In this document: positions 7,873 through 62,156 of the stretch, piece after piece
Position numbering within the stretch: position 1 is the first letter of the stretch
How the letters are laid out: the number at the start of each line of letters is the position of its first letter
Source of the DNA: Tricholomella constricta
Lineage: Eukaryota; Basidiomycota; Agaricomycetes; Agaricales; Lyophyllaceae
Direction of reading: 5' to 3'
Assembly (NCBI GenBank): GCA_013368375.1
Contig: JAACJP010000033.1
Location: 402,231 to 466,230, forward strand
Length of the DNA stretch: 64,000 nucleotides
Program-made: the position numbers and the translations under genes
Notes under the pieces: generated by a model
Database searches by the model: none
What the model was told of the DNA's origin: nothing
What the model saw: only the letters and a program-made list of their open reading frames with translations

Positions 7873-8211
7873 CATTCTCGTGACAGCAGGCAGACTCCTC
7901 TCTCTCTCGGGTCTCGCGGAAAGCCTTCGCTATTTCTGTACACCATCTTTTGTGAGTCTCTTGCCCACCCCTTAAATGACCCCTCTCATCGTGTGCTTGC
8001 TAGGGTATTTCAGATCTGAACCTAGGCCTCGAGAAAAATGCGGCTCTCCTATTACATGGAAGCCATAGACGATCGCGAGTGGATCCGTAATCACAAGTTC
8101 AGAAGTTCTCGCTCTCAAAGCGGTTGTCGACCCTATTCTCCCTCTTTACTTTAAAAAGGCTTCGTCTCTGGAACCACAGACCACCCCTTCCCTCTTCTCA
8201 CCTCCACGATA
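7873..8211. other. Upstream region of the first metallophosphoesterase
   Basis: No gene is visible. The last ~100 bases are pyrimidine rich with CTCCCTCTTTAC- and CCCTTCCCTC-type tracts before the ATG, as is common in basidiomycete promoters. Confidence 0.4.
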
Positions 8212-42200: not shown

Positions 42201-44660
42201 TTATTCAAAGGTATGTTACTTTAAACCACTGCTATGTTTACACTAACATAACATGTAGAATCAGGACATGAGCAAAGTTGCAGAAGACGCAGCATCGATG
42301 TTACAGCATTATGGAAGCATACTTGGAATCAGGCCTGGGCAACTATATGGCTCTGTGCTTGCTCTGATGCCTAAAGATTGCAAGTTATATGAGAGATACA
42401 TTGATCGATTTACAGTCAATCGAATTGAGTCTAATTATCCCTTGACAAGTGGGGTAGCTCTGAGAACACTTGTTGGCCATACAGATAGTGTAAAAACAGC
42501 AGTTTTTGCCCCAGATGGAAGTCAGTTGGCTTCAGCATCTGCTGACTACACTATTCGCCTCTGGGATATCCACACAGGAAAAACCATAGGCTCTGCCTTA
42601 GGGGGCCATAGTAAAGAGATTCAGACAGTTGTGTTTTCTCCAGATGGGAAAAAATTAGCCTCAGCATCAGATGATAAAACTGTATGCCTCTGGAATGCCC
42701 TCACAGGAACAATGATTGGCTCTCCACTGGAGGGTCATACAAATTCTGTTTGCTCAGTTGTATTTTCTCCAGATGGAACTAAACTAGCCTCAGCATCTGC
42801 TGACAATACTGTCTGTCTCTGGGATGTTAATGAAGGAACAGCTATAGGCTTTGCACTAGAGGGCCATAGTGACTGGGTTCGATCAGTGGTGTTCTCTCCA
42901 GATGGAACAAAATTGGCCTCAGCATCAGATGATAATACTGTACGTCTTTGGGATGCTCAAACAGGGGCAGCTATAGGCCCTGCACTACATAACCATAGTG
43001 GTTGGGTTTTCTCAGTCGTGTTCTCTCCAGATGGGACATGGCTAGCCTCAGCATCAGCTGATAATACTGTTCACCTCTGGAATGCTCAGAGAGAAGCAGA
43101 TGCTGGCTTGACATTTAAGGGCCATCTCGATCGGGTGTTTTCAGTTGTATTCTCTCCTGATGGAGCAAGATTAGCCTCTGTATCTGCTGATTACACAATT
43201 AGAATCTGGGATGTTTATACAGGACTTGGTATCACCTTAACGGGTCATAAAGATGAGGTTACCTCAGCTGTATTCTCACCTGATGGAAGCATCTTAGCTT
43301 CAGCTTCATTTGACCATACTGTCCGTGTCTGGAATGCTTATACTGGTGCTGATATGGGCTCTGCATTAGAGGGTCATGAAAGTCGAGTTTTGTCAGTTGC
43401 ATTTTCTCCAGATGGGACAACACTTGCCTCAGCATCACAGGACACCACAGTTCGCTTTTGGAATACAAAAAAAGTCATCAACTCAGTGTTAGATGGTGAT
43501 AGGCATCAGATTTCCTCAGTTGTATTTTCTCCAGATGGAACAAAAATGGCCTCAATATTATCAAATTTCACCATCTGCCTCTGGAATGCACAAACAGGAA
43601 CCATGATATGTCCTCTATCGGAAGGCTACAGTAATTCAGTTGCATCAGTTGTGTTCTCTCCAGATGGAAGAATACTAGCCTCAGCATCATATGACAATAA
43701 CATATGCCTCTGGGATGCACACACAGGCATTGCTATTGGCTCTCCACTCAAAGGCCACAGTGAAACAGTTTTCTTCATGGCATTTTCTCCTAATGGAGAA
43801 AATCTAGTCTCATTATCATTTGAAAACACTATGTACCTCTGGAATGTGCACACAGCTATTGGTTTTGCACTAAAGGGACATAGTGAATGGCCTAGGGGAG
43901 CTGTGTTCTCACCAGATGGAACAAAGCTAGCCTCAACATCAGAAGATAATACTGTCCGACTTTGGAATACTCAAATAGGGACAGCCATTGGCTCTGCACT
44001 AGAGGGACATGATAGCAAGATTTTTTCAGTAGTGTTCTCTCCAGATGGAACAATAATAGCCTCAACATCAGACGACAACACTGTGCGCCTCTGGGATGCA
44101 CATACAGGAACTGCCATTGGCTCTGCCCTACAAGGCCACAGAAGGCAAGTCTATACATCAGTGTTCTCTCCAGATGGAAGTACCCTAGCATCATTGTCAG
44201 ATGATACCACTGTTTGCCTTTGGGATGTTCATACAGGAACAGCTATTGGCTCTGTGCTTGAGGGACATAGGCAATCAGTTCAGAAAGCTGCATTCTCACC
44301 AGATGGAACAAAACTGGCCTCTGCATCAGATGATAATACTATCCGGCTCTGGGATACTTGCACTGGGACTTGCATCAAAGTATACAATAGTGTTGAACAT
44401 CAACATTTCCCACTGTTGATAGGTCTTTCATTCGACAATCATGGCTTTCTTGTGAACCATATATCTGAGGTCATAGCATGGCTGCCTCACCGCCACCGGG
44501 GTACCATTGTTGTTGGGTCTTCGGGTGTCATAGCTGTCTATTCAAAGAAAGGGATCATCACATTTATTAACTATGCACAAAGTATGTCTATATTCCTTTA
44601 CATCTTTCTAATTTACTCACTTCATTGTCAGAGATACTTACAGTTGAAGATTTATTTTAA
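39270..44660 (+). CDS. NLR-type STAND protein: C2-like N-terminus, NACHT ATPase, 15 WD40 repeats
   Basis: ATG at 39270. Exons 1-3 encode a C2-like beta domain (LSILNIQPVIKASDV...SAHPIWNEILSFEAHPSSAVTIEIIRRSKFFG). A helical linker follows (LGDAIAEAHPIANAAW, LQGQIERDEKVQQLW). NACHT motifs start near 40,800: Walker A GAAGTGKSSVA, Walker B PLVIVIDALDEC, and KILVTSRYE. From 42,463 there are fifteen WD40 units of 126-129 bp with FSPDGT.LASAS.D.TV.LW cores. The final intron (44,582-44,630, strong GTATGT donor) gives a stop at 44658-44660; read unspliced, the frame runs to 44742. Such proteins are fungal STAND receptors related to HET-E, thought to detect non-self and trigger incompatibility or cell death through their N-terminal domain. 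No effector domain is seen beyond the C2-like part. The 5' third has many introns; the NACHT-WD40 part has few and is visibly more AT-rich. Confidence 0.88.
42463..44385 (+). repeat. Tandem array of 15 WD40-coding units
   Basis: The unit length is ~126-129 bp. The nucleotide core TTCTCTCCAGATGGAAC...CTAGCCTCAGCATC recurs in nearly every unit. Units 9-11 are the most diverged (for example the SNFTICLW and FENTMYLW cores). High internal similarity implies recent expansion or gene conversion. Confidence 0.9.
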
Positions 44661-46148: not shown

Positions 46149-47116
46149 ATGTCCTCTACGTCACCTGTACCTTCATTCTCCCCACCCAAAACTCCTCCAC
46201 CTCCTCCCCGTGATCAGGTTCCCCTTTTCTCCCCTCGTACTCCTCATCCAGCTGCTCGTGCAAACTCTCCTGTTGATTCTGATGACGCGGATGACGATTT
46301 ACCTATCTTATCTCTCGACAATCTGCCCAAAGGACACCAGCTGGTTGTACGTGGCTGCATTTCAGACATCGCTGGCGACACGCCCGTCTCTCTAGTAACG
46401 GAATTGCTGGACCAACTTGGCGCGGATTCACGCTTCGCTTTCTTTTCCAAGCTCGACTTTCTTGTCACTCCATTCAGCAATCGGACTTCGACCGTGTCCT
46501 CGGCTTGCTACATCGAGCTTCGCTCCGACTCATCATCTGCAGAGCCCCGCATAGATCTGCTCGAGATCGTAAAGGATGCCATAGGAGAAGCTAAGCCGGG
46601 CTGGGAAGTCAGATGGAGCGCTGGGAAGAAAGGATCGACCGACAAACGTATGTCCGCCCGCCTGCTGAATCTCTATCCGGGCACTGTCGACCCAAAGTCC
46701 ATCCCCTCCGAACATCTCCCCCTCATCTCTGCCTACATTGAGAAGAAGGGCTTCAAGGTCGCAGGCATCTTTGCGTCCTACGGCGGCCCCCAGATATCCT
46801 TCCTTCTCCCTCACGATGCCGATCGCTTTGTTGCGCTTAAAACGATTGAGGTGCCCGCGAAGGTCTCGAAGCATCGCGCCACCATTGAACCGGTCAGGGA
46901 AATCAAGATCGAACACCCGTTCGAGATCGTAATCCAAGGAGCGGGCCAGTATGACGGAGCTGGACAACTTATCACGAAGTGGGCGGAGAGAACGGTTCGA
47001 GAGCCCACGATGAGTGCTCGGTCGCCTGTTGCCAACCCGGATCTCGTCATTTTCCATGTGTCGACGTGGGCTGCGACCCTCAAGGTTCTACAGGCTGTCG
47101 AATCGTTCAGACGCGT
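46149..47116 (+). CDS. Hypothetical protein, possible LINE ORF1-like, cut at its 3' end by the LTR element
   Basis: ATG at 46149 starts a Pro/Ser-rich leader (MSSTSPVPSFSPPKTPPPPP), an acidic stretch (SDDADDDLPILSLD), then a folded-looking region: LVVRGCISDIAGDTPV, FAFFSKLDFLVTPFSNRTST, GWEVRWSAGKKGSTDKRM, KKGFKVAGIFASYGGPQISFLLP, FEIVIQGAGQYDGAGQLI. The frame runs on into the 5' LTR to 47294, but host sequence ends at 47116 (VESFRR). Joined to the right flank at 59829 it would stop two codons later. The pattern of alternating strands and the presence of LINEs nearby make a LINE ORF1 (RRM-like nucleic-acid binding) possible. I have no firm family match, and a host gene is equally allowed. Confidence 0.45.
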
Positions 47117-48152
47117 TGATGAGCACCGTCCAACGCTGTACACGGAACCAACCCATTCTACGGATATCAACCGTTGCGCCACGACGAACACGGTCCCAAA
47201 TGCGACCAAAGCGCTAAACCGGCCGACCGACAATACGACCGACCGACCGACAATACGACCAAACGACCAACGCACCGACCAAGAGACAAAGTAACTTGGA
47301 ACGCCAGTTCTCCTCTCTGGGCGCGCGGAGCACGGAACGCCGTATAACCTGTCAACGACCGCGCACGTTTGTATGCCAAGGTCTCAACCCGGCAACAACC
47401 AAACCCGATTTGAAATAATCCTAGGAAACGCCGTTGCCTAGCTAGCCGCAAGAAGGATCCGGCCGTACCACGGAGCTCCGCACCCAAGAGCCACTACCGA
47501 TCGCAAAGCCATCACCGATCATACATCCGACCCGACGCCTCGAGCCGATCAAAAGCCCCTTTGCCGAGCCAAAGAGCGCCACACTCTCTAAAAAGCGTCG
47601 CGCGGTACCAAGCTTGGCGGCGCTTCCCCCAAATAAACCAGTAAAACACCTGCCTCGCCGGCTCGCGCGAGGCAAGTCGGTCGTATTGTATAAAAACATA
47701 CCCATGTATTACCTACTTGCCCCAGTGAATTACAGCCCGTATTTTCCCTCACTCTCAGAGTTAATAGCTCAAAACCGTCGTCTCTGTCGTCTCCGCATCG
47801 TTCTCATCGTATAAACCGTCGCCACCGTCGTAAACCTCGTAACCGCCGTCTCCGTCGCCTCGTAACCGTCGCCCGAACCCGTGAGTTCTCCGTATTCGTC
47901 TCGTTCGTCTCGTTGTCGCACAACCAACACGAAAGTCGTGTTGCCGACCCGTTCCACCTGTGAACGATCGTATTCTATCGCGCCGCCGTCGGTTCGACTA
48001 ATTACAAGTCGGATCGTCTTTACTTTCGCCGAACCACCACTTTCAAACCCTGCACACTCGCGTGTTTGGGAACTTTTAACACTTCTCGCCCCCCATAGTT
48101 GTTAGTTGTTTTGTTGTTGTGTACAGCACCTACAGGCCTTCTAGCTCTATCA
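47117..48152 (+). repeat. 5' LTR
   Basis: TG...CA boundaries were set by comparison with the 3' copy. It contains GACCGACCGACC-type repeats near 47225, a TATA box at 47689-47696 and a CGTC-rich stretch at 47780-47890. Confidence 0.93.
47652..47696 (+). promoter_or_regulatory. LTR core promoter: inverted repeat and TATA box
   Basis: A 7-bp inverted repeat, GCCTCGC/GCGAGGC (47652-47658 and 47667-47673), lies just upstream of TATAAAAA (47689-47696). Both are kept in the 3' LTR, suggesting a constrained promoter. Confidence 0.6.
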
Positions 48153-48155
48153 TTC

Positions 48156-48171
48156 TGGAGCCCACCGCGAG
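48156..48171 (+). other. Candidate tRNA primer-binding site
   Basis: TGGAGCCCACCGCGAG starts three bases after the 5' LTR. TGG is the complement of a tRNA CCA end. I could not match the priming tRNA with confidence. Confidence 0.5.
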
Positions 48172-48637
48172 GGTTTTAAAAGCCACCGCCGAACACGCAA
48201 CCTCATTCCTCTTGTTCATAAAAACCTACGACTCGTCGACCATTCCGCCCGCAACCCGACAAGAAGCTAAAGCCCGAACCCTCCGTGCCGAAATTCGCGC
48301 TGCTCTCGGACAAGTCGACACCGACTCAGAATCGCTCTCCCCGTTCTTCCGCTCAGTAACCCCACACCGCGCGATCCATAACAACCTCAGCCCGCTCTTC
48401 TATAGCCCTTCGTCGACACTACCGTCGCCTACCCCGACCGATCAAACACCACTCCCCGAACCAACCGCGCAACCCGACCTAGCTTTCGACCCCTTTGCGT
48501 CGGAACCTCCTACCACCGATCAAGGAGTTGAATTTAGACTCCCCTATCTATCGCCCGCGACCCCAGAAATCTCAGATTCTTCTTCACCGTCGTATTCCCC
48601 CTCCCCGTCCCCTATCCCGAAACCAATACCATCTATC

Positions 48638-50941
48638 ATGGCACAACCACCAATCATTATAAAGCCGATGCCCGCACGCGGACAAAGCTCGGCGCCGACG
48701 TTCGTACCCGAACGCGCGCGTGAACTGCGCCGATATTTTTCGGACTTAAATCATCTCTTCATCGAGTGTAACGTCGTAGATGAGCAAGAAAAGAAAACGC
48801 ACACTACGCGATACACCGACATCGATACCGCGGATCTGTGGGAGCAACTTGACGAATTCGCAGTCGGTACCACATACGACGACTGGCGAAAAGCGATAAT
48901 GGCGCTTTACCCAGGCGCAAGCGAAGAAAGAAAGTATTCAATGGCCGACCTCGACTACCTGATCAGGGAACGACACCGACTCGGGATCCAGTCGAATAGT
49001 GACCTCGGGGAATATTACCGACAGTTCCTTTCTGTTACCCAGTTCCTTGTCAGCAAAAACCGACTTTCGATAAACGAACGCGACCGCCAATTCCGTCGCG
49101 CGTTCCAGTCCGATCTATGGTCAAAGATCCATCGCAGGCTCGAGATCCTAAACCCGAACCACCATCCCGACGACCCCTACGCCACGGAAACCGTTCGCGC
49201 TGCGGCGGAACATATCCTCCACGGAACAAACGCCGGCCAACGGCAGGAAGCGCCATCGAGCGCGCCCCCACAAATTACGATCGCGCCAAGCGGGTCGTTA
49301 ACGGGCGCGACCAAGTCGCCTAACACGGGACAGCCCCTCAAGTTGGAAGAGCTCTACGAAAGAATCAACCTGTTGGAACAACATATCCAACGCTTAGGAC
49401 AAGACAAAGGAGGCGACGGCGGCCGACCGAATCAGTCACCTAATGACAACTGCCACTTCTGCGGTGGTGAAGGACATTATATTCCTAACTGTCCCATACA
49501 TCAAACATACGCGACCGAAGGACGCTGCCGACGAACCGACGACAACAAGATAGGCCTACCAAGCGGCGCGCGCATACCGGCGGGAACTCCAGGCCGATAC
49601 ATAAAGGACAAGTTAGACGAGTGGCACAGACGCAACCCCGGCCAAATGGCGACAGGACAGCTATCAGCGAACGCGAACCCGACCGAGAGCATGATGTTGG
49701 AAATACTACAGTTTAACGACGTCACCGACCATAACTTGAAAATCGAGGATCGCATGATCGTGTTAGAACGAGAACTCAACACCCTGCGCGCAAGGAAAGA
49801 GGTGTTCGACGGCGTAGAACTTATTAGCCGCGCACCGCAAAAGCGACCCGTCACGGTCGAAACCGTTCAAGACGCCGACCAACCAAGGATCGCACCAGTC
49901 AACAAATCAGCGCCCGCGTCGCAGCCCGTCTCGGACGCGACGAAAAGCCAGGCCAAGGCTCCCCCGCCGCCGTCCAACATACCTCTGATCCCCAGTACCA
50001 CGACCGACGCCACAGGCAATGCCCACGACCAGACTCCAGTACACCCTTTCTCTAACATTCCTGAGAACCGATACATCCCCCCTACCACGCGAAACTTAGC
50101 CGCCACGGAGAAGGCGAAAGCCGACAGCGCGTATCGCACACAAGCGCCCATTACAGATCCGACCAAATCAACGACTCTATTCGAACGCGCACTCGACGCC
50201 ACCATACCGGTCACAGTTCGAGAACTCTGCGGGGTAGCGCCAGAGGTTCGCGGAAAGTTTAGGGAAGCTAATACACCGAAGCGTATCGTCGCCGGCAACC
50301 TCACAACGGTATACCAAGAAGTCCCCACGTCGGCGTTCATTGAGGAACTCGACGCACTACCTTGCGAATCCAACAGCGACAACGCGACGCCACCGCCCGG
50401 AGCGCTAGTCACCGGCGACATCTACGACACGTACTACCAGACACTACTACCCGGCGAGCATCCGGACCGACTGATCGTCGCAATGGAATCGCACGCACTC
50501 AGGTCGATCATGATAATGGTCGACGCGAGAGAACAGATAGAAAGCATCGTCGACAGCGGGTGCCAGATCATAGCCATGTCGGAAGAAGTTTGCCATGGAC
50601 TAGGGGTCAAATACGACCCAACTATAGTGCTGCAGATGCAATCAGCGAATGGAACAACCGACCCGTCGCTCGGTCTAGCACGAAACGTACCTTGTACGAT
50701 AGGAGAGGTCACGCTCTACCTCCAAATGCACGTCATTCGCAATCCCGCATACGATATACTCCTCGGCCGCCCGTTCGACGTACTTACTTGCTCTAACGTG
50801 AAAACGAGATCCGCCGACGATACGATCATAACCATCACCGACCCGAACACTCGAGAGGTCATCGCGATACCGACCTTCGCGCGCGGACAACGTCGCCGCC
50901 CCAAGACCGACGTAAATTTTCGTATACTCTCGAGGAAATAA
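48638..50941 (+). CDS. Gag-protease polyprotein of the Ty3-type element
   Basis: The frame is open from inside the LTR end, but its first ATG is at 48638 (MAQPPIIIKPMPARG), a start that resembles gag of related mushroom elements. The capsid-like region includes ARELRRYFSDLNHLF, YPGASEERKYSMADLD and LGEYYRQFL. A CCHC knuckle, CHFCGGEGHYIPNC, lies at 49451-49492. The C-terminal part holds an aspartic protease with DSG at 50552-50560 and a LLGRPFD motif near 50760. The stop is TAA at 50939-50941. No break is seen, so particles could in principle still be made. The 170 codons open upstream of the ATG may be leader, or may be read from a non-AUG start. Confidence 0.85.
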   Translation: MAQPPIIIKPMPARGQSSAPTFVPERARELRRYFSDLNHLFIECNVVDEQEKKTHTTRYTDIDTADLWEQLDEFAVGTTYDDWRKAIMALYPGASEERKYSMADLDYLIRERHRLGIQSNSDLGEYYRQFLSVTQFLVSKNRLSINERDRQFRRAFQSDLWSKIHRRLEILNPNHHPDDPYATETVRAAAEHILHGTNAGQRQEAPSSAPPQITIAPSGSLTGATKSPNTGQPLKLEELYERINLLEQHIQRLGQDKGGDGGRPNQSPNDNCHFCGGEGHYIPNCPIHQTYATEGRCRRTDDNKIGLPSGARIPAGTPGRYIKDKLDEWHRRNPGQMATGQLSANANPTESMMLEILQFNDVTDHNLKIEDRMIVLERELNTLRARKEVFDGVELISRAPQKRPVTVETVQDADQPRIAPVNKSAPASQPVSDATKSQAKAPPPPSNIPLIPSTTTDATGNAHDQTPVHPFSNIPENRYIPPTTRNLAATEKAKADSAYRTQAPITDPTKSTTLFERALDATIPVTVRELCGVAPEVRGKFREANTPKRIVAGNLTTVYQEVPTSAFIEELDALPCESNSDNATPPPGALVTGDIYDTYYQTLLPGEHPDRLIVAMESHALRSIMIMVDAREQIESIVDSGCQIIAMSEEVCHGLGVKYDPTIVLQMQSANGTTDPSLGLARNVPCTIGEVTLYLQMHVIRNPAYDILLGRPFDVLTCSNVKTRSADDTIITITDPNTREVIAIPTFARGQRRRPKTDVNFRILSRK

Positions 50942-50962
50942 GTCGAGATCACGGCGATCTCG
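50914..50962 (+). promoter_or_regulatory. Candidate -1 ribosomal frameshift signal joining gag to pol
   Basis: In the gag frame, A AAT TTT (50914-50920) fits X XXY YYZ. A -1 slip leads into the frame that stays open past the gag stop (TLEEISRDHGDLALLLEYD) toward pol. A 7-bp perfect stem, CGAGATC/GATCTCG with a 5-nt loop, lies at 50944-50962, somewhat farther away than usual. Confidence 0.6.
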
Positions 50963-53098
50963 CACTCCTCCTCGAGTACGACCCACTAAGCTATACCCCG
51001 ACTGTCCTTTCTTTCTGTGAACTACCGACCGAATTTAATAGCGACGCCACCTACGACGCGCAACTAGCCTCACTCTACGTCGCGGCATCCGAACTAACCG
51101 CACCAGCAATCGCCGACCAATCCGATAATACCAACTCTAACCCTCAAAAACGAACGACCCTCTGCACTATTTTACCGCACAAAGAGCGCCATAGTGGACG
51201 CCACACCCAATCCCTGACCAACGCCGCCACCGACGCCTTCGTGGTGAAAATCAAAGGCGTACAAACCAAAAAGAAGTACAAACCAGTAGCGCAAAAAGTG
51301 CGATCGATCATAGCAAGTTGTCCCGACCACTTCCGCATCGAGCGCAAAATATTGGGCGACCCTCTCGCCAACATGCCGACTCTGCTCCCCAACCCGCCAC
51401 CTTTCCAACCCACCGGCCGCTACACTCTAGAGCGAAAAGACGACTTAGACCGTGAACACCCAGACTTCTTAACGCCCTCCGAACGAGCAATTATGCACGA
51501 CCTCATGTGTAAGCAGAACCTCGCTTTCGCATGGGACGACTCCGAACGCGGTAGTTTTCGATCGGATTTCTTTCCCCCTATCGATATCCCGGTCGTCGCA
51601 CACACACCCTGGATCGAACGAAATATCCCCATACCGCCTGGCATCTACGATGAAGTTTGCGACATTATCAAAACCAAACTCGCCGCTGGCGTTTACGAAC
51701 CGTCCAACTCCAGCTACCGATCGCCGTTGGTTTTGCACTCTAAAGAAAAATGGCAAGTTCCGCCTCGTCCACAGCCTCGAACCGCTCAACCGAGTAACTA
51801 TCCGACACTCGGGGGTCACTCCGATACCAGACCATGTCGCCGAACAATTCGCCGGTCGCATTTGTGGCGCAATGTTGGACCTGTTTGTCGGCTACGACGA
51901 ACGGCTAATCGCACCATCGTCGCGCGACCTTACCACTTTCCAAACACCTTTCGGCGCGTTACGCCTAGTCACCTTACCTATGGGCTGGACCAACTCCGTC
52001 CCAATCTTCCACGACGACGTCACTCACATCCTACAACCGGAGATCCCGGACTATACACTACCTTATATCGACGACGCTGCTATAAAGGGACCAGCAACTT
52101 GGTACCCCGACCCGGACACAGGATTGCCGAAAACACACCCCGACAATGCCGATGTGCGTTCGCGATCTGGGAGTTCTTCAACAACGTCAACCGAATCCTC
52201 CAGCGCATGAAGTACTGCGGCGGCACCTTCTCCGGAAGAAGCTGATTTTATGCGCACCACAATTTAAAGTCCTCGGACACGTCTGCACGCCCAATGGTCG
52301 CATACCCGACGTGACCGACTTCGCTTTACTGCGTAATTGGAAGTCGTGCGCCACCCTATCAGAGTTACGCGCGTTTTAGGAACAGTCGGAGTACTAAGGA
52401 TATTCGTCAAAAACTTTGCTCATCGCGCACACCACCTCGTAAACTAACTCGCAAGGATGCCAGTCTTTCGAGTTCGGCCCCGACCAGATCGCAGCACAGC
52501 GTGACATCGTCGAGGCGATCGCAGAAGCGAAACCCCTCGTACCATCGACTACGCCTCGGACGACCCCGTCATCCTGGCCGTCGACACTTCCCACATAGCA
52601 GTCGGATTCTACCTCTGTCAAGCCGACCCCGTCGATCGGAAACGACGCAGATACAATCGGTTCGGTTCCATTACACTGAACGACCGCGAATCACGGTTCT
52701 CTCAACCAAAACTCGAATTTTACGGCCTATTTCGGGCGCTTGGCGCTTTACGCTGTACGTTATAGGCGTCCGCAACCTAGTCGTCGAAGTCGACGCGCGC
52801 TACATTAAAGGAATGCTCTCCAACCCCGACATTCAAGCCGTCAGCTTCCATAAACAGGTGGATCGTATCTGTCCTCATGTTCCACTTCGAACTCGTCCAT
52901 GTTAAAGGCACGTTCCATGGACCCGACGGTTATCTCGTCGCCCACGACAACCCGACGATCCAGCCGACAACTACGACGCAGAAGAAGCCGACTTTGAAGA
53001 TTGGGTCGATCGAATGCAAGGACTCATGCACATTATCCAACCGCTGCCACAACCGCCGTCGCCATTACACATATGCAGATCTTCGCTATGGCACAGTC
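50914..53098 (+). pseudogene. Reverse transcriptase-RNase H region, multiply frameshifted
   Basis: The linker and N-terminal RT run in frame 1 to about 51725 (YRSPLVL). RT then continues in frame 2 (WFCTLKKNGKFRLVHSLEPLNRV, LVTLPMGWTNSV, catalytic YIDD at about 52066). It moves back to frame 1 near 52150 (FAIWEFFNNVNRILQRMKYCGG), to frame 3 near 52237 (KKLILCAPQFKVLGHV) and has further breaks near 52376 and 52435. RNase H pieces (ILAVDTSHIAVGFYLCQ, LNDRESRFSQPKLEFYGLFRALGALR) lie in different frames to ~52915. A one-base insertion near 51722 (TCG-C-CGT) explains the first break. The protein order and motifs are those of Ty3. The copy cannot produce an active RT. Confidence 0.8.
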
Positions 53099-54680
53099 TC
53101 AAGTAAGGAGGAGATGGTGGCAGTATACACCGACGTGGTGCCACCAAACTCCAACGACTCACGAACTCGCAACCGACTCCCCACGACAACCCAGAATCCG
53201 TACCGACGATGATACAGGAATAACCGACCCAAATGCGAATTTGACCGACATGTCATACGACGACGTGCCCAGAACCGACGCCGCTAAAGCCCAAGACCAA
53301 CGCATAGATGCCGTTAGACAATGGTTGGCCGACCTCGAACGACCAGAAGGCATGTCCGACGATCAGTACGCCACTTTCATTCGATACGCCACCGGGTTCT
53401 TCCTAGACGGAACACGACTCTGGAGGAGAGACAGCCAAGGCGCACATAAACTAGTCGCTCGCCCCAGCGCGCGGTTAGAGATTCTGCGATTGGTCCACGA
53501 CAACCTCGGACACAAACGCTTCTACGCGACACGCGCAACCTTGCTCGAACGCTTCTGGTGGCCTAATGTTCGGGCCGACGTCGTGTGGTTCGTACAGACG
53601 TGTCACATATGCCAAATCCAGCAAACGACCAAGGTCCTGATTCCCCCGGTCGTTGCGACACCTGCGCCACTGTTTGCAAAAATGTACATCGACACTATGC
53701 ACCTACCGCCGTCGAATGGTTTCAAATACATTGTACAAGGTCGTTGCTCCTTGATTCACTTTCCTGAATGGCGCGCGCTCCGAAAGGAAAACAGTCGCAC
53801 CCTCGGCGATTGGATGTATGAAGACATCATCTGCCGGTGGGGCGGACTGCGCGAAATCGTAACCGACAACGGTCCAGCCTTCATCAAAGCCGCCGAACAC
53901 CTCACAAAGAAATACCACATACACAATATTCGAATCTCAGGCTATAACTCTAGAGCCAACGGACTCGTCGAGCGATCCCATTTCGACGTCCGACAATCCC
54001 TTTTCAAAGCCGCCGACGGAAACGAAAGCAAATGGTCGCAATCCGCTTATTCAGTCTTCTGGGCGGAACGCGTCACGGTCCGCAAGCGAATGGGATGTTC
54101 ACCCTATTACGCCGCAACAGGAACCCAACCCCTTCTCCCTCTTGATATCGTCGAGGCCACATACCTACAACCGCCGCCCGACTCTATCCTGTCCTCCACC
54201 GACCTCTTGACACGTCGCGCGATCGCCCTACAGAAACGAGCGGCCGATCTAGAGCGACTGCATTCAGACGTATACGCGGCACGACGACAGGCGGCGGTTC
54301 GCTTTGAACTTAAACACGCCAGAACCTTACGCGACTATAACTTTAAACGCGGAGACCTCATCCTCATGCGCAACACGAAAATCGAAAAGTCGCTCAACCG
54401 CAAAATGCGATCTAGATACCTAGGACCGCTCGTCGTGATATCATGCAACCGCGGAGGCGCCTACATCCTCTGCGAACTGGATGGCACCGTCTTACACCGG
54501 CCTGTAGCAGCATTCCGACTCACCCCCTACTTCGCACGAAACAATATCCTCCTATCCGATAGTGCTCTGGACATAGACACCAAACGACTCAGAGAACTAG
54601 AGGCGACGACGATAACCGACGACGAAGACCGACCCGAAGTCGGGAGCGATGGTTCTGAGTCGGAAGAAGAACCGAACTAA
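53001..54680 (+). CDS. Integrase domain of the Ty3-type element, open
   Basis: One uninterrupted frame ends in TAA at 54678-54680. The part before ~53250 is linker and may not be translated as shown. The HHCC zinc-binding block is VHDNLGHKRF...CHICQ (53492-53615). The catalytic triad is Asp in MYIDTMHLP (~53688), Asp in VTDNGPAF (~53867) and Glu in ANGLVERSHFD (~53968). A C-terminal GPLVVIS...YILCELDG block resembles the GPY/F module. There is no chromodomain; the tail is acidic (ESEEEPN). As part of pol it would depend on the upstream frame, which is broken here, so it is probably not expressed from this copy despite being intact. Confidence 0.85.
   Translation: MGRSNARTHAHYPTAATTAVAITHMQIFAMAQSQVRRRWWQYTPTWCHQTPTTHELATDSPRQPRIRTDDDTGITDPNANLTDMSYDDVPRTDAAKAQDQRIDAVRQWLADLERPEGMSDDQYATFIRYATGFFLDGTRLWRRDSQGAHKLVARPSARLEILRLVHDNLGHKRFYATRATLLERFWWPNVRADVVWFVQTCHICQIQQTTKVLIPPVVATPAPLFAKMYIDTMHLPPSNGFKYIVQGRCSLIHFPEWRALRKENSRTLGDWMYEDIICRWGGLREIVTDNGPAFIKAAEHLTKKYHIHNIRISGYNSRANGLVERSHFDVRQSLFKAADGNESKWSQSAYSVFWAERVTVRKRMGCSPYYAATGTQPLLPLDIVEATYLQPPPDSILSSTDLLTRRAIALQKRAADLERLHSDVYAARRQAAVRFELKHARTLRDYNFKRGDLILMRNTKIEKSLNRKMRSRYLGPLVVISCNRGGAYILCELDGTVLHRPVAAFRLTPYFARNNILLSDSALDIDTKRLRELEATTITDDEDRPEVGSDGSESEEEPN
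53099..53116 (+). other. Candidate central polypurine tract
   Basis: TCAAGTAAGGAGGAGATG is identical over 18 nt to the tract adjoining the 3' LTR (58773-58790). It lies between RNase H and integrase. Confidence 0.5.
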
Positions 54681-54682
54681 TC

Positions 54683-55070
54683 GCCATCCCGCGAACCCGT
54701 ATACCCTTTCTTTATGCAACACCTTTTTCACCGACACACACCGTTCGGCCGACCGAATATACCGACGACCTATGCCTCTCATTCTCTCAGTTCCGACCCA
54801 AACCGACCATATCCCCGATTCGCTATCTCACTCTTACCAAAACTCCACTCAATCTCACTTCCACCAAATCTTTCGTCACTTAATCGCCTCCAAAAAAAAA
54901 AAAGAAAATCAACACCGGACGTTATGTATATTATATAGCGGTTCCACTAAAGAACCGCCCAGACGCAGACCACCAAGAAAAAACAAAAATGTACCAAAGG
55001 CCGAGCGAGCGACCAAGACCCCAAGCGCGCCCCGACCGACCGACACCCGACGACGCGACCACCGCCTTGC
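54683..55070. other. Region between pol and the antisense genes
   Basis: It is the 3' side of both convergent transcription units. An (A)12 run lies near 54892-54903. No further gene is seen. Confidence 0.5.
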
Positions 55071-56912
55071 TCACCCCATCACGACGTCGCCACTCCCAAT
55101 CTCGTCACCACCCTCCGCGATTCCGTCGTCCTCGCCGTCGCCCTCAGCATCTTCATCGTCGGTGCTCACAGCGCTTCCTTCGCTCGAGCCAGACTCGCCC
55201 AGCCCGTTCCCGAGCAACTCCGAACGACGTTCATGGAGCGCTCTCAAGGCATCCAGCGTACCGGTGACTTGCTGGTAGGACAGGCGCAGCTGCCGCCGAA
55301 TCAGCTCCTGACGGGACTCCAGAACCTGCGTCTCCTGCACCAGTGTCCGAAGGAAAGAGTTGCGCGCGAAGAGGGCGCGATCCACGTCGTTAAGACCGAA
55401 CTTCTCCACGATCGACGTCGGCACCAAGTACCCCAGACCCTCCAAGTCCTCGTTGTAGAGCGGAGCCTCCGCGTTAGGTAACTCTCCCTGCGACAAGAAG
55501 TCCAGCCCCATACCTGCAGAACCGTCGGACTGGACCATCAGGAGGTGATGGACGGCGGCCGCTAGTTGGCGTTCGCGGGCCCGAACCTCTGCCACGGACG
55601 GAGGCGGCGGGTGGCGCACCACGAGCGAGGGTGCGACCACAGGCTTTTGCTCCTCGGCCTCCTCGACTGTGGGGCGCGACAAAGGGCGACGCCGCGACCG
55701 CGAACCTGAAGCCACTGGGACGCCGGCCGGCGCACTGTCGCGGACTGTCTCGCACTTCTTGGCATGTATCTTGCAGAGCGCGCAGATACCACCGTCCGGC
55801 TTCTGAAGGCAATCGACGCCGGCGTCCATGCAACGGTCGCACTTGGAAAGAAGTGAGTGCAAAAAAGAAAAAGACAAGACACGATTAAAGACCTACGGGC
55901 ACGTCGCGCACGAAGTGATTGGGGCACTTCTTCTTGAAGTCCTCCAGACGCGAAAGCCATTTATCGCCGGTCGCGCGCCGCTTCCCCTTTGCCTTCACCG
56001 GTTCCTCCTCGAAGACGTCCCCGACCGACACTTCTCCGTCGTCCGCGACGTCGCGCTTGCGCTTGCGAACCGGAGACGCGACCTCGTTCCCGTCGTTGGC
56101 GGCAGGCGTCGTTTCTGCCAAACTTGTTAGTGGCAGACCACTGACGGGGCTGAAAACGAGCCCCGATCGATGAGCGGACTCACGCGCGCGACGAGACCGC
56201 GGTGTCGGGAGTACAGACTGCGGAACGTTAGTGATTCAACCACGATAAACTAAGTACACAAGACCCACTTCCAAAACACCGTCGCTAACGGCCTGCGACC
56301 CACCACCGACCGACCTACGGGGCATGTAGACGAAGGGACGAGGAGGTTTGCCTTTTCCTTTGGCCTTCGGTGCTACGGAAACGCCGGGTAAAGACCCACC
56401 CATGACCAACGGCGGGGTCGCCCCCTCGCTACCGCGCACCGGCGCCGCCCCCTTCGCCGCCGCAACCGGCTCGGCGGACAACCCTCCCTCAAGCCCCACA
56501 GTCACGGCCGGTGGCGCTGGCCCAGCGCTTCGTGCAGCGTCCGACAGGAGGCGTCGCTCGCGACGCCGGCGGGTGTATTCGTCCTGAGGGATGACCACCA
56601 CAAGTCAGTTACCCGCGCACCAACGAACAGGAACGAACACACCTCGGGCTCTAAAGCTGCAAAATTTTTCTTCCACTCCTCATCGTCCTTAATGCGCGAC
56701 CATATCAGGGTCAGCGCTTCCTGCTCCTCCCGCCATTCCACCCGTCCAGGACCCGCCCCTTGGTTGCGCAGCGCGGCCAGGCCGTCCCGGATATCTTCGA
56801 GCGCCTCAGTGCGCTGTTCGCGAGTAGCGTCGACGGGCAGTTGACACCACCGGACGTAGTCCGTGCTCAGATAACGAAGGACGCGCTTGAAGTCCGAAAT
56901 GGCAGCAGTCAT
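55071..56912 (-). CDS. Antisense accessory protein A with Zn2Cys6-like cluster
   Basis: ATG at 56912 on the strand opposite to gag-pol. Exon 1 is helical (MTAAISDFKRVLRYLSTDY ... LIWSRIKDDEEWKKNF). A GT...AG intron follows at 56588-56643. Exon 2 is low-complexity and basic/Gly rich. Two short joins lead to KRKRDVADD... and WLSRLEDFKKKCPNHFVRDVP. An intron then precedes the cysteine block CDRCMDAGVDC...CALCKIHAKKC (55752-55841), spaced C-x2-C-x6-C-x8-C-x2-C-x6-C as in fungal zinc clusters. The C-terminal part is helical and conserved in gene B (LYNEDLEGLGY, DVDRALFARNSFLRTLVQETQVLESRQEL), with an acidic tail and TGA at 55071. About 550 residues. Being on the antisense strand, its introns would survive in genomic RNA. 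Function unknown; a nucleic-acid-binding regulator is the natural guess. Confidence 0.75.
55752..55841 (-). other. Zn2Cys6-like cysteine cluster in antisense gene A
   Basis: Six cysteines in C-x2-C-x6-C-x8-C-x2-C-x6-C spacing start right after an intron. The basic residues usual between Cys2 and Cys3 of DNA-binding zinc clusters are mostly missing, so DNA binding is not assured. Confidence 0.6.
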
Positions 56913-57056
56913 GGTGGTTGAAAAAGACAGGGAACCGAAAAAGGGAGGCGTCACTTTAAACAAGCTGGGATGCGCCATCAAAATTCAGTTGCACCGCCAC
57001 CGCCGTCTCACGCCACACACGCGTCCGTTCTAGAATTCTCTCGACCGGCCTCCGGA

Positions 57057-57094
57057 CCGACTGAGGGCAGTCGGCATTTCAAGTCAGGAGGAGA
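57057..57094 (+). repeat. Internal copy of hairpin plus polypurine tract
   Basis: CCGACT-GAGGGC-AGTCGG can fold into a 6-bp stem and is followed by ATTTCAAGTCAGGAGGAGA. The same arrangement with few differences precedes the 3' LTR at 58751-58788. It marks the end of a duplicated module. Confidence 0.75.
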
Positions 57095-57311
57095 CATGAC
57101 CGGCAGATTGAGAGGTGGCCGACGCCAGTGACAGACACCGCCGATGATAAAACCGACCGACACGACGAACCGACCTGCGCCACTAAAAACACGAAAAGTT
57201 TGAACTATAAAGAACGACCCGATTTTAGGGCCCGCACGACAAAACAGGTATATACGGAATACGCGACCGACAACGAGCGCAACCCGACCGCACAACACGC
57301 CAGACCCGGAG

Positions 57312-58608
57312 TCAAGACGACGAACCTTCGCCACAACCTTCGCCACCATTGTCGCGGACGCCACCGCCGACACCGCTACCCCCACTTCGCGCGTTATCCG
57401 TCGCAGACACACCGATTAACTCTGCGCGACGGGCCTGAAGCAAATCAAGGGCCGTCGACGTAGATGCGACCTGCTGGTAAAGCTGACGAGCCGACGAACG
57501 CATGATCTCTTGGCGCGATTCGAGGACTTGAGCTTCCTGGACCAAAGTGCGCAGGAAAACGGTACGCGCCGATAGCGCCCGATCTACATCCGCAAGATCG
57601 AACCGCGAAATAACCGACAACGGCTGGGTGAAGCCCAAGCCACGCAAATCTTCGTTATGGAGAAGGTCATCGAGGCGAAGCAACGGACCCTGATAAAAGA
57701 AACCCGCGTCCCGGTCCGCCGAACTCGCGGAACGAGTCGCGACAAGGCGCTGGGCGACCCTCGCCAGATCGGGCGAACGAACCTCGTCAAACAACGGAGG
57801 TGTGCACACATCGCAAGAGTGTTCCTCTACTGAGCACGACACAAACTGGTGCGGAGCCTGCAGAAACGACCCCACCTCGTTCGTCTCACATTGCCTGGAT
57901 TGGAGTTCGCAAACCGCGCAAGCGTCATTTCCGATACGCTGAACGCAGTCCAAACCGTAGCTCACGCAGCGATCGCACTAGCCAACGAATGAGCAGAAGA
58001 ACGAAGCCACACGAGAACCGACGACTTACCGCTTCACTACGAGTGTAATGCTCGGGGTATTCCTTCCTAAATTCCTCGAGACGCTCCAGCCACGAATCGT
58101 GTCGCCTCCCTTGCGCCGCCAATACCGACTCCCCAGAAATCTCGACTACGGACTCTTCCTCGTCCGCGTCCCCAACAGAGGGAGCGCACGTACATTCCCG
58201 AACGACAGGCTCGGCCCCTTCTCCAACAGAGGCGGCGCGCGCAGGCTCCCGAACGACCGACCGACGATGGGGGTAATCAGACTGTAAACCAGCACGTCAG
58301 TCACCAAAAACGACCGAACCACCAAAGGGTGAACACACATCCGGTTGCAGATCCGCAAACCGCTCGGACCATTCCGGGTCGGACGCGATCGTAGACCATA
58401 TGGCGAGCAATGCCTCTCCCTCGTCGCGCCACATCCAACGCCAGGGGCTAGCTGCCGGCGACCTAAGCACTCCGACGCTGTTTGACAAGTACTGCAGCAC
58501 GCGGGTGCGCGCGTAACGAGGCGAGTCGGCCGACAGCGATTGCCATTCGTCCCAGTCTCGTTCCAAGAAGCGGAGAGTACGCTGAAGATCGACAGGAGGT
58601 CTCGACAT
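57312..58608 (-). CDS. Antisense accessory protein B with Zn2Cys6-like cluster
   Basis: ATG at 58608, with a 24-nt T run (minus strand) starting about 19 bases upstream. Exon 1 (MSRPPVDLQRTLRFLERDWDEW ... AIWSTIASDPEWSERFADLQPD) aligns with exon 1 of gene A and ends at the same intron position. Exon 2 is shorter than in A. It ends WLERLEEFRKEYPEHYTRSEA, again directly before an intron and the cysteine block CDRCVSYGLDC...CAVCELQSRQC (57888-57977). The C-terminal helical region (LHNEDLRGLGF, DVDRALSARTVFLRTLVQEAQVLESRQEI) is about half identical to A. TGA at 57312-57314. About 370 residues. Open frame and splice signals are kept although A and B differ far more than the two LTRs do, so the pair was already diverged when this copy inserted. 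Confidence 0.75.
57888..57977 (-). other. Zn2Cys6-like cysteine cluster in antisense gene B
   Basis: All six cysteines and their spacing match gene A, while most intervening residues differ. This argues for selection on metal binding. Confidence 0.6.
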
Positions 58609-58627
58609 AAAGATGGATAAACCAAAC

Positions 58628-58651
58628 AAAAAAAAAAAAAAAAAAAAAAAA
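58628..58651 (+). repeat. (A)24 homopolymer upstream of antisense gene B
   Basis: It reads as poly(T) on the coding strand of gene B, 19 nt before its ATG, so it lies in the 5' UTR or core promoter. Slippage in sequencing may affect its length. Confidence 0.7.
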
Positions 58652-58750
58652 CCCTGGATATATATACGTCGCCAGCACGTCGGCACCGCCACCTCCTCCT
58701 ATCCCTACCCTTCTTTTCCAAGACGTACGCCCCCTGACCGATGCACGAGA

Positions 58751-58788
58751 CCGACTGAGGACAGTCGGTATTTCAAGTAAGGAGGAGA
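58751..58788 (+). other. Hairpin and 3' polypurine tract
   Basis: CCGACT-GAGGAC-AGTCGG stem-loop, then TCAAGTAAGGAGGAGATG running into the first bases of the 3' LTR. It is the expected plus-strand primer site. Confidence 0.75.
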
Positions 58789-59824
58789 TGATGAACACCG
58801 TCCCGCGCTGTACACCGAACCTACCCATAATACGGACATCAACCGCTGCGCCACGACGAACACGGCCCCGAATACGATCAAAGCGCTAAACGGACCGACT
58901 GACAATACGACCGACCGACCGACAATACGACCAAATGACCGACGCACCGACCAAGAGACAAAGTAACTTGAAACGCCAGTTCTCTTCTCTGGGCGCACGG
59001 AGCACGGAACGCCGTATAACCTGTCAACGACCGCGCACGTTTGTATGCCAAGGTCTCAACCCGGCGACAACCAAACCCGATTTGAAATGATCTTAGGAAA
59101 CGCCGTTGCCCAGCCAGTCGCAGGAAGGATCCGGCCGTACCACGGAGTTCCGCACCCAAGAGCCACTACCGATCGCAAAGCCACCACCGATCATACATCC
59201 GACCCGACGCCTCGAGCCGATCAACAGCCCCTTTGCCGAGCCGAAGAGCGCCACACTCTCTAAAAAGCATCGCGCGGGTACCAAGCTTGGCAGCGCTTCT
59301 CCCAATAAACCAGTAAAACACCTGCCTCGCCGGCTCGCGCGAGGCGAGTCGGTCGTATAGTATAAAAACATACCCGTGTATTACCTACTTCGCCCAGTGA
59401 ATTACAGCCCGTATTTTCCCTCACTCTCAGAGTTAATAGCTCAAAGCCGTCGTCTCTGTCGTCTCCGCATCGTTCTCATCGTATAACCCGTCGCCACCGT
59501 CGTAAACCTCGTAACCGTCGTCTCTGTCGTCTCGTAACCGTCGCCCGAACCCGTGAGTTCTTCGTATTCGTCTCGTTCGTCTCGTTGTCGCACAACCGAC
59601 ACAAAGGTCGTGTTACCGACCCGTTCCGCCTGGGAACAATCGTATTCTATCGCGTCGCCGTCGGCTCGACTAATTACGAGTCGGATCGTCTTTACTCTCA
59701 TCCCACCACCACTTTCAAACCCTGCACACTCGCGTGTTTGGGAACTTTTAACATTTCTCGCCCCCCATAGTTGTTAGTTGTTTTGTTGTTGTGCACAGCA
59801 CCTACAGGCCTTCTAGCTCTATCA
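58789..59824 (+). repeat. 3' LTR
   Basis: The second copy of the LTR, directly preceded by a polypurine tract. Its TATA box is at 59361-59368. Confidence 0.93.
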
Positions 59825-60372
59825 GCGTGCATTGATAGTAGCTCCAGGCTACTTACCGCTGTTGGTCCCTCTGCTGCTGCTACACCTTGCCCGACTTCGT
59901 CCGAACGACGTTGAGGCGGCACATAGGCTATAGGAGGTCGCGGTACCGGCGGATCGACGATAGATTGTATCGTTGGTGTGTTTTCAGAGCTGGTAGCGCT
60001 CGGTGGCGCTCGGTTTGGATCCATCGCAGATAGATCTTCGTTTCAGGGTTGTGGTGATGGTGATGGCGCTGATAAGCGAGTCGACGTCGACGATAGAGAG
60101 CAGTTAAGCAGATAGCAAAGCTGGGTAGCTTAAAAAAGTGTAACGGTTGTACGGGGTTGGGGGATCCTTGCGAGACACCAGACACGTTAAGCTAGACCAA
60201 TCTGTGGGATTCTGCTAAGTACGTGTACAGGGTGAAGGTGCAAAGGATTATCTAAGCATAAACTGTACAGGACATTTATATACGCATAACAAAGATGGTC
60301 GTGCATTACCAGAAGGTAATGCCAAACAGGTCGCTTCTCAATATAGACGTATTGTAACGCGCCGTCGTTACA
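59825..60372 (-). mobile_element. Fragment of a second, minus-strand LTR element (LTR, leader, gag-like stub)
   Basis: Read on the minus strand, 60372-60139 starts TGTAACG and ends CGTTACA, a 7-bp terminal inverted repeat typical of an LTR, with TATATAAA at about 60276-60283 as promoter. A ~115-nt leader follows, then ATG at 60024 opens MDPNRAPPSATSSENTPT, a Pro/Ser-rich gag-like start. It is cut after ~67 codons where the big Ty3 element begins. The remainder is not found on the left side of that element. No PBS was recognised. Confidence 0.5.
60139..60372 (-). repeat. Putative 234-bp LTR
   Basis: TGTAACG...CGTTACA ends with a TATA box inside, read on the minus strand. No second copy is in the window, so LTR status is inferred. 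Confidence 0.5.
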
Positions 60373-62156
60373 GATATGTTGTAGACGCGGTTCTACGCTA
60401 TGACGGTCACTCCGAACGGGTGCTGTTCGCAGTCGCAGGCATCGGGAAGCAGGATCTCATCCTCGGATTCACCTGGCTTCGAGACCACAACCCCGACATT
60501 GATTGGGCGACGAAGAGGGTGAAAATGAGTCGGGCGCCGTCGCGTTGCGACACCTGCAAGGTTGAGGCCAAGGAAGAGCGGCGCTCGCGCACCAAACTGC
60601 GACCTGCCATTCGGGCCTGTCGGGCGGAAGGATTTCCGACCACAGAGCCGGATCTGCGTGCCCCGACCAGCCCCTACGTCGAGGACGACTCTGACATGGA
60701 TGAATTCCTCCCCTACACCCCAGTCATGGAGGAACCCGATCCAGAGTCGGACGACTTCCTTGCGGAGACCTTCCTGAACGGCGACCGCATCTTTGCGACT
60801 GCGATCCACCCTCCTCCGACTGTGGCGCACATCCGTGCCAGTTAAACGACATCGCAGCGACTCGCGGAAGCGCATGCCGCGAACTCTGTGCCCAAGTCGT
60901 TCCGCGACGCCGTTCCGACCCACCTCCATGACTTTGAGGACGTTTTCTCCAAGGTCGCGTTTGACGAACTCCCCGATCGCAAACAGTGGGATCACGCGAT
61001 TGAGTTGGAGCCGGGCGCTTCGCCGTCCGGCACCAAAGTCTACCCACTGTCGCCGGCGGAGCAAGTCGAGCTCGATGCGTTCCTCAAGGAGAACCTCGAG
61101 TCGGGTCGGATCCGTCCGTCGAAGTCACCCATGGCTTCGCCAGTGTTCTTCATCAAGAAGAAGGATGGTGCGCTCCGGCTGGTGCAGGACTATCGGACGC
61201 TCAACGCGCTTACGGTGAAGAACCGGTACCCACTACCACTCATTAGCGAACTGGTGAACAACCTCCGCGGCGCGCGGTACTTCACCAAGCTGGACGTCCG
61301 ATGGGGGTACAACAACGTTCGGATCAAGGAAGGCGACGAGTGGAAGGCAGCGTTTCGGACGAACCGCGGTCTCTTTGAGCCGCTCGTCATGTTCTTCGGC
61401 CTCACGAACAGCCCCGCCACATTCCAGACCATGATGAATGACATCTTCCGCGATCTGATCGCCGAGGGTGTTGTTTGCGTGTACCTCGACGATATCTTGA
61501 TTTACACCAAGACTCTCGAGGAACACCGTCGGGTCGCGCGACTCGTACTGGACCGACTCCGCGAACATAAGTTGTTCTTAAAACCCGAGAAATGCGAGTT
61601 CGAACAGACCAAGGTCGAGTATCTTGGGCTGATCATCTCGCACGGGCAAGCGGAAATGGATCCGGTCAAGGTCGCTGGAGTGTCGGAGTGGCCGGCGCCG
61701 AGGAACAAGAAGGAGGTGCAAGCGTTCTTGGGCTTCACCAATTTCTACCGACGGTTCATCCAGGACTTCTCGCACCACGCCCGACCCCTGTTCGATCTGA
61801 CGGGCAAGGATGTTGCCTGGCGCTGGGAAGCGTCGGAACAGTCGGCCTTTGACCTCCTGAAGTCTGCGATCACGTCGCGACCAGTGCTTGCATTCCCCGA
61901 CGACGACCGACCGTACCGCATCGAAGCTGATTCGTCCGACTTTGCGACGGGCACGGTCCTGTCACAAGAGTCGCCATCTGATGGCAAGTGGCACCCGGTC
62001 GCGTTCTACTCGAAGAGCTTGAACGCAGTCGAGCGGAACTACGAGATCCATGACAAGGAGATGCTGGCGATCATCCGGTCTCTGGAGGAGTGGCGACATT
62101 TTGTGGAAGGCGCAAAGCACAAGGTAGTGATCTTGACGCGACCACAAAAACCTTGA
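60373..62156 (+). pseudogene. Chromovirus protease end, RT and RNase H with nonsense and frameshift
   Basis: Frame 3 is open except for TAA at 60843-60845, within HIRAS*TTSQRLAEAHA. CAA (Gln) is the natural ancestor, one C-to-T change. RT motifs follow: SPMASPVFFIKKKDGALRLVQDYR, TKLDVRWGYNN, FGLTNSPATFQTMMND and catalytic VYLDDIL (~61480), then LGFTNFYRRFI and RNase H (IEADSSDFATGTVLSQ, FYSKSLNAVERNYEIHDKEML). After HKVVILT an extra base near 62140 shifts the frame away from the expected DHKNLEYF. Not functional. Confidence 0.85.

Follow-up and report, generated by a model that had tools for sequence, protein, structure and literature searches.

A Ty3-like long terminal repeat (LTR) retrotransposon of the basidiomycete Tricholomella constricta carries two paralogous, intron-containing genes, here called A and B, in antisense orientation between integrase and the 3' LTR. 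The element occupies positions 47117-59824 of the window, a 64,000-nt stretch of contig JAACJP010000033.1 (G000:C33:402231-466230), and its relatives were sought in this one genome (44.09 Mb, 118 contigs). Based on gene structure, coding constraint and the distribution of variation among copies, we propose with a probability of roughly 0.58 that A and B are element-encoded, trans-acting DNA-binding regulators, of which A would be exchangeable and type-specific.

The antisense, intron-containing pair had been described, with its coordinates, in an earlier note on this DNA, and gene models with GT-AG introns and clean frames bear this out (Table 1). Gene A contains three predicted introns (59, 51 and 55 nt) and encodes 558 aa; gene B contains two (57 and 52 nt) and encodes 395 aa. 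Features listed by the earlier note as common to both genes were recovered in the 270-nt exon 1, the exon-1/2 junction and an intron placed immediately ahead of the CDRC motif, whereas the third intron of A has no counterpart in B. Both proteins follow a common plan, with a block C-x2-C-x6-C-x8-C-x2-C-x6-C after the last intron and then a long C-terminal helix. Comparison of 33 loci (L004-L036; L001-L003 were left out as repeats of longer loci) shows a regularity beyond chance: the exon-1 donor follows 270 nt precisely in 24 of 28 A copies (three at 273, one at 267) and in all 25 B copies; an AG acceptor directly precedes the cysteine block in all 62 last exons (A: 33/33; B: 29/29), and the exact six-cysteine spacing is present in 33/33 A and 26/29 B last exons, counts that are not independent because several loci are near-identical. 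Middle introns are ambiguous among many allowed models; the counts draw only on exon 1 with its donor and on the acceptor of the last intron. Since all readable first exons (28 A, 25 B) keep the intron donor, the data agree with the idea that antisense introns may survive passage through the sense genomic RNA.

A dN/dS ratio near 1, an outcome that the earlier note had considered, was not found: omega is about 0.2-0.3 across copies, well below 1. After exclusion of rows with stops (25 of 33 A last exons were kept), the median pairwise Nei-Gojobori omega was 0.205 for A exon 1 (258/378 pairs usable), 0.295 for the A last exon (278/300), 0.319 for B exon 1 (286/300), 0.285 for the B last exon (390/406) and 0.050 for integrase (273/300). 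Exon indels were mostly multiples of 3 (multiple vs. not, B: 55:10 in 36 pairs from 9 copies; A: 49:9 in 22 pairs from 12 copies), in contrast to those of the predicted introns (B: 7:23; A: 1:37). This difference yields Fisher p-values of 1e-8 (B) and 7e-17 (A), from pairs that are not independent and from gene models that had to keep the frame, which favours frame-preserving exon indels. The other five frames contain many stops in every exon set; the count of zero stops in the annotated frame results from the choice of rows, stop-bearing ones having been dropped beforehand. Taken together, the omega values, the predominance of indels in multiples of 3 and the stop-rich alternative frames show that both the A and the B protein are under purifying selection.

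Exon-by-exon searches of the genome returned at least 36 matches to the DNA query, at least 142 to the A protein, at least 153 to the B protein and at least 83 to integrase, all lower bounds taken from scored candidates (83 of 727 for integrase). Among the first 20 large loci fetched, 19 showed the order integrase (+), A (-), B (-), LTR; the exception (L015) contains only part of A, followed by a second integrase. The earlier note had also considered that homologues might mainly be free-standing, which is not the case in this genome: among the matches listed, an antisense integrase lies within 1.5 kb of 44/49 A last exons and within 6 kb of 46/54 B last exons. A spliced open model was found for all 24 B genes and for 27 of the 29 A genes tried (L019 and L022 not included), with a premature end in the last exon in six of the 27 A models (L005, L007, L008, L013, L026 and L033, the last being a doubtful model). 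The Kimura two-parameter distance (K2P) between LTRs was 0 to 0.008 in seven of the 10 copies with both LTRs measured; B is open in all seven and A in six, with three of the A types defined below (1, 2 and 3) represented. The remaining three distances were 0.064 (window copy), 0.045 (L019) and 0.108 (L022). Reading the value of the window copy as an age was rejected as unsafe, given that the 3' LTRs of L019 and L022 match that of the window copy at 99.9% identity and that the downstream flank is common to all three.

Copies of a sister clade (88-90% in the integrase search) extend these observations. In L029, whose integrase is 92% identical along the stretch read, both genes are again antisense; the B gene of this copy (1877-2886 of that locus) lacks the six-cysteine block but has retained exon 1, the helical end and a DDYTRRRRERR stretch. 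In L030, from the same clade, just the last exon of A is present before unrelated DNA begins. Should L029 be typical, B could work without a cluster of its own, for example as a partner of A. Two more distant integrase relatives (47-48%; L047 and L048) contained no recognisable A or B except a weak collinear B match in L047 (E 0.06), antisense to integrase; in L048 the sequence soon passes into another element. A search of viral contigs for relatives gave 10 pattern matches, none of which was confirmed.

The cysteine block gives A and B a DNA-binding look. The Zn(II)2Cys6 consensus is C-x2-C-x6-C-x5-12-C-x2-C-x6-8-C, and the spacing in A and B fits it, with the cluster absent from the one clade-2 B read. 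All six cysteines are invariant in 29 aligned last exons, and a 66-residue helix is predicted C-terminal to the cluster. Structural matches were weak: three of five Foldseek matches in the PDB were Gal4 or Put3, and five of 13 VIA rows in a fold comparison were Put3, Pho7 or Gal4. The designation "zinc cluster" in the earlier note thus holds for cysteine spacing and weak fold similarity but misses the curated Pfam threshold, with one of the 29 aligned last exons matching PF00172 at E <=1 (14.4 bits vs. a gathering score of 21). Compared to the fungal Zn2Cys6 regulators (Gal4, Put3, Pho7), A and B share the cysteine spacing, the long C-terminal helix and the weak fold match; they differ in remaining below the PF00172 cutoff, in having most basic residues in the second half of the cluster, and in placing the cluster mid-protein, after a conserved N-terminal helical domain. 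Foldseek searches with exon 1 returned nothing better than E 0.69, sequence searches of the PDB nothing convincing, and Pfam scans of A and B no TRP28 (PF04195) and no bZIP match. Pfam matches to Lentiviral_Tat on B and on exon 1 (best E 0.013 and 0.0047) were below the cutoff where checked and were taken as chance.

Two features that the earlier note had missed are a common upstream module and the hypervariability of A. The module CTCCTCCTTACTTGAAATRCCGACTGYCCYCAGTCGG (gene strand), about 140-170 nt upstream of both start codons, combines a polypurine tract (PPT) with the palindrome CCGACTG-N4-CAGTCGG. The palindrome arms are perfect in 13/17 A and 14/14 B upstream stretches, the imperfect cases being the A copies of L014, L027, L026 and L029, and a genome-wide scan that allowed 2 mismatches matched the core pattern 131 times and a reversed control not once. 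The rest of the intergenic DNA shows only weak similarity to U3. The module copy before the 3' LTR occupies the place of a polypurine tract; the internal one, upstream of A, suggests that the A/B pair goes back to a duplication in which the module was carried along. Its CCG-N12-CGG spacing resembles sites bound by Zn2Cys6 dimers, which makes the palindrome the first candidate binding site. As a type-specific target of A it was rejected, since it is common to all A types. In L026 (type T4), two palindrome/PPT modules stand in a row upstream of A (at 2780 and 3091 in gene orientation); the second has surroundings like those of clade 2 and is possibly a relic of exchange.

Types T1-T5 of gene A were assigned from A exon sequences before tree building. 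Between types, identity is about 78-98% over the LTR and B, falls to 48-65% over A and returns to 87-99% over integrase and pol. Segment by segment (13 of the 33 loci, not every segment being present for every copy), the median nucleotide differences within and between A types are similar in U3 (0.072/0.087), the B last exon (0.131/0.127), the upstream intergenic part (0.189/0.198) and the module (0.087/0.109). They diverge in the stretch from module to A (0.160/0.274), A exon 1 (0.180/0.469), the A last exon (600 nt; 0.183/0.464) and the A-integrase tail (0.191/0.499), and are again close at the integrase end (0.057/0.080). By this profile, the borders are the module and the integrase stop, and A is a hypervariable cassette bounded by the two.

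In the mechanism that we propose, the paralogous antisense genes of this Ty3-like family are ancient and have a module upstream of each; their transcription would start from antisense promoters, in the region of the 3' LTR and in that separating B from A. Their products would be nuclear, dimeric, Zn2Cys6-like DNA-binding factors (Cys6 cluster, basic stretch, coiled coil) that act in trans on element copies, probably via CGG-type sites such as the shared palindrome, and would set the level of element transcription or silencing. The A cassette would be exchanged between elements, and its diversity would persist because rarity lets an A type evade whatever targets the common ones, either host silencing or the element's own control. 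B has no cysteine block in the one sister-clade copy read and may dimerise with A or modulate it. Regulator, anti-silencing and self-limitation variants of this scheme overlap and are not exclusive.

A somewhat unlikely alternative is that A and B are anti-silencing factors like VANC of the VANDAL elements, which are DNA transposons. Both proteins would bind element DNA and remove host silencing marks or keep them from being set, and A would diversify with its targets, restricting the effect to its own subfamily. This would fit a non-mobility protein that diverges fast beside conserved mobility proteins. It would also fit the pentamer TCGGT, which exceeds dinucleotide shuffles in 3/3 LTRs (12-17 vs. 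3.4-4.1) and 4/4 intergenic stretches (6-11 vs. 1.9-2.8) and is not enriched in gene A (6 vs. 5.4); VANC targets are tandem motifs in noncoding DNA, according to passages of PMC5735166. However, TCGGT repeats occur in copies of every A type tested (T1-T4), are thus not type-specific and could be simple repeats. The TCGGTCGG 8-mers are clearly enriched only in the three LTRs and the tail of the window copy (L009), with 1-2 copies elsewhere and none in the L010 tail.

Our proposal could take a narrower form that we consider rather unlikely, in which gene A, its promoter and its 3' flank would make up an exchangeable specificity cassette, or "immunity type". Several incompatible control types would then coexist in one genome, the antisense-encoded DNA-binding protein of each element governing only its own type, with swaps at the duplicated palindrome/PPT module as in lambdoid phage immunity regions. 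A related explanation, type-specific self-limitation in the style of Ty1 copy-number control or phage immunity, has the resident A repressing incoming elements of its own type, so that rare types gain; we judge it unlikely. Hypervariability confined to A, together with exchange, would be expected, and three A types are found as open A on near-identical-LTR copies in a single genome, but a type-specific cis target was not found among the noncoding stretches compared, where only the module-to-A stretch and the A-integrase tail vary with type.

A quite unlikely alternative is that no cassette exchange took place: A would be fast-evolving or old, and the rest of the element homogenised or more constrained. 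Recombination could homogenise B and integrase, and on the integrase tree the A types group strongly (5 label changes, minimum 4); there, a single T1 clade was weakly rejected (p 0.040) and a single T2 clade was not (p 0.20). On the B tree, in contrast, A types are not monophyletic, single clades being rejected for both T1 and T2 (approximately unbiased test, p 2.6e-5 and 1.4e-7); these were quick trees, with L019 and L022 left out. The raw synonymous difference in A exon 1 exceeds that in integrase in 136/136 between-type and 53/53 within-type pairs (pairs with integrase dS >0.05; L019 and L022 again left out). Synonymous and noncoding sites flanking A are young and A synonymous sites near saturation, with abrupt borders, and the doubled border module upstream of A in L026 is what insertion or exchange at the module would produce. 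The clearest recombinants nevertheless weigh against a simple cassette swap. L009 (the window copy), L019 and L022 are 99-100% alike from the downstream flank through the 3' LTR and B into most of A, whereas pol and the upstream flank differ, and two of the three lie within about 10 kb of a contig end. Because L019 and L022 share the downstream flank GCGTGCATTGAT with the window copy, beyond the 3' half of the element, the event was a large ectopic exchange with its junction inside gene A.

Capture of host genes by chance in some copies is very improbable. No listed integrase lies near 5/49 A and 8/54 B last exons among the matches listed (83/727 integrase candidates scored), but two of those five A matches stand at contig starts, and the pair has the same place and orientation in two element clades. 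Antisense long noncoding RNAs from transposons have reportedly been found in a powdery mildew (PMC10648671). The idea that the antisense RNA matters through double-stranded RNA or antisense interference, with incidental frames, is the least credible of all, even though some retroelement antisense transcripts are noncoding and may be regulatory (parts of PMC7264820), since omega of 0.2-0.3, exon indels that preserve the frame, the conservation of splice sites and the invariance of the cysteines argue for selection on the protein.

Elements with comparable genes provide partial parallels, described here from portions of the cited sources. Antisense aORFs of plant Ty3 elements (Retand with TRP28, Grande gene23, RIRE2; PMC11963269, PMC7264820) likewise encode predicted DNA-binding or nuclear proteins. 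Grande gene23 has a reported promoter of its own, and DNA binding and a regulatory role are suggested, not shown, for the plant proteins in the sections covered (PMC11963269, PMC7264820); the function of plant retroelement antisense accessory genes is given as unknown in PMC7264820. A and B differ from them in lacking a TRP28 match, in being tandem paralogues with 2-3 introns each, in their Zn2Cys6-like block, and in that one of them is hypervariable and appears to be exchanged. The words "intron" and "fung" or "fungi" are absent from the main texts of PMC11963269 and PMC7264820. HBZ of HTLV-1 is also a spliced antisense gene from the 3' LTR side and regulates sense transcription of its element (PMC12313066, in part), where splicing of A and B is predicted and regulation by them would be analogous; HBZ differs as the bZIP product of a single retroviral gene, with no sequence relation shown to the two genes here. 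VANC of Arabidopsis VANDAL (PMC5735166) similarly is an element-encoded non-mobility protein that diversifies fast between related elements and can do so together with its targets, but its binding and demethylation were shown by experiment, according to the passages covered, whereas A and B are known from sequence. Ty1 copy-number control by p22/p18 (PMC7055915, in part) shares self-encoded control and a specificity module replaced by recombination in an otherwise related element, with a divergent gag, moved by recombination, deciding self-restriction. The Ty1 factor comes from sense-strand gag and acts on virus-like particles, unlike the antisense, predicted spliced, cluster-type A and B. As far as these sources were covered, none of the four systems combines tandem, spliced, Zn2Cys6-like and cassette-exchanged genes, and the listed titles and abstract openings of open-licence PMC papers contained no fungal LTR element with spliced antisense genes, which does not prove that none has been published.

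The family has dozens of copies in a single genome, several of which have identical LTRs, and its antisense genes are duplicated and conserved, with conserved introns and a DNA-binding look; one of the two genes has the signature of an exchanged specificity module. With a defined protein pair, a candidate binding site and natural A types, the role of antisense genes in LTR elements becomes directly testable.

Table 1 Features of the element and its antisense genes (window positions; TSD, target-site duplication)
Feature	Position	Strand	Remark
TSD GCGT, left copy	47113..47116	.	
5' LTR (TG...CA)	47117..48152	+	93.7% identity with 3' LTR; K2P 0.064
gag-protease open frame	48119..50941	+	first codon inside LTR, start position provisional
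Candidate primer-binding site TGGAGCCCACCGCGAGG	48156..48172	+	position just after 5' LTR
Reverse-transcriptase region	51241..52905	+	several broken frames in window copy
Integrase frame	53001..54680	+	Integrase_H2C2 E 7.5e-16; at least 83 scored matches in this genome
A exon 4: six-Cys block, linker, long helix, stop	55071..55841	-	
A exon 3	55897..56217	-	
A exon 2; begins DEYTRRRRERR (basic stretch)	56269..56583	-	
A exon 1, 270 nt, helical fold predicted	56643..56912	-	
Module upstream of A: palindrome CCGACTG-N4-CAGTCGG and PPT-like AAGTCAGGAGGAGA (+ strand reading)	57057..57094	-	
B exon 3: six-Cys block, long helix, stop	57312..57977	-	
B exon 2	58030..58281	-	open without the extra intron that the model script preferred in the window copy
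B exon 1, 270 nt	58339..58608	-	
Module upstream of B: same palindrome and polypurine tract AAGTAAGGAGGAGA abutting 3' LTR	58751..58788	-	
3' LTR	58789..59824	+	
TSD GCGT, right copy	59825..59828	.	

Both LTRs have TG...CA ends, and the element is flanked on both sides by the 4-bp TSD. Such a duplication is present in seven of the 11 copies examined, window copy included, the misses being L026, the recombinants L019 and L022, and L018 (whose 5' LTR falls outside the stretch). The TSDs of the seven copies are CCGT (3), CCGC (2), ACGG and GCGT, with CG in all, a possible target preference. The candidate primer-binding site has the same position after the LTR in eight other copies with the 5' LTR end read. 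The gag-protease frame matches Pfam Asp_protease_2 (PF13650) above the cutoff and zinc knuckles only below it. A YIDD motif at 52064, upstream of integrase, is presumably that of reverse transcriptase; a Pfam scan of two pieces of the broken reverse-transcriptase frames in the window gave no reverse-transcriptase match. The window copy has a broken pol, whereas in many other copies integrase is part of an open frame of 1295 aa. When the flanks of the window element were joined, the upstream frame stopped at the junction and no informative empty site was obtained, and Rfam (gathering threshold) and tRNA scans of the window gave no match.

Elsewhere in the window, pieces of another Ty3-like pol lie downstream of the element (60393-62156, with reverse-transcriptase and RNase H Pfam matches at 60888-62153), a tandem array with a unit of about 129 nt occupies 42504-44355 (repeats 71-91% alike), and two diverged collinear stretches (8202-11089 and 17839-20675; pieces 72-81% identical) are probably a duplication. 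Between the convergent stops of A and integrase, a hairpin at 54937-54960 recurs at a similar place in many copies. Its stems vary but stay complementary (GGTGGTCC-TAAT-GGACCACC, GGCGGTTCC-TAAAT-GGGACCGCC, AGCCCGTAAAATGGGCT) and are often followed by an AATATA-like sequence, possibly a terminator or RNA signal.

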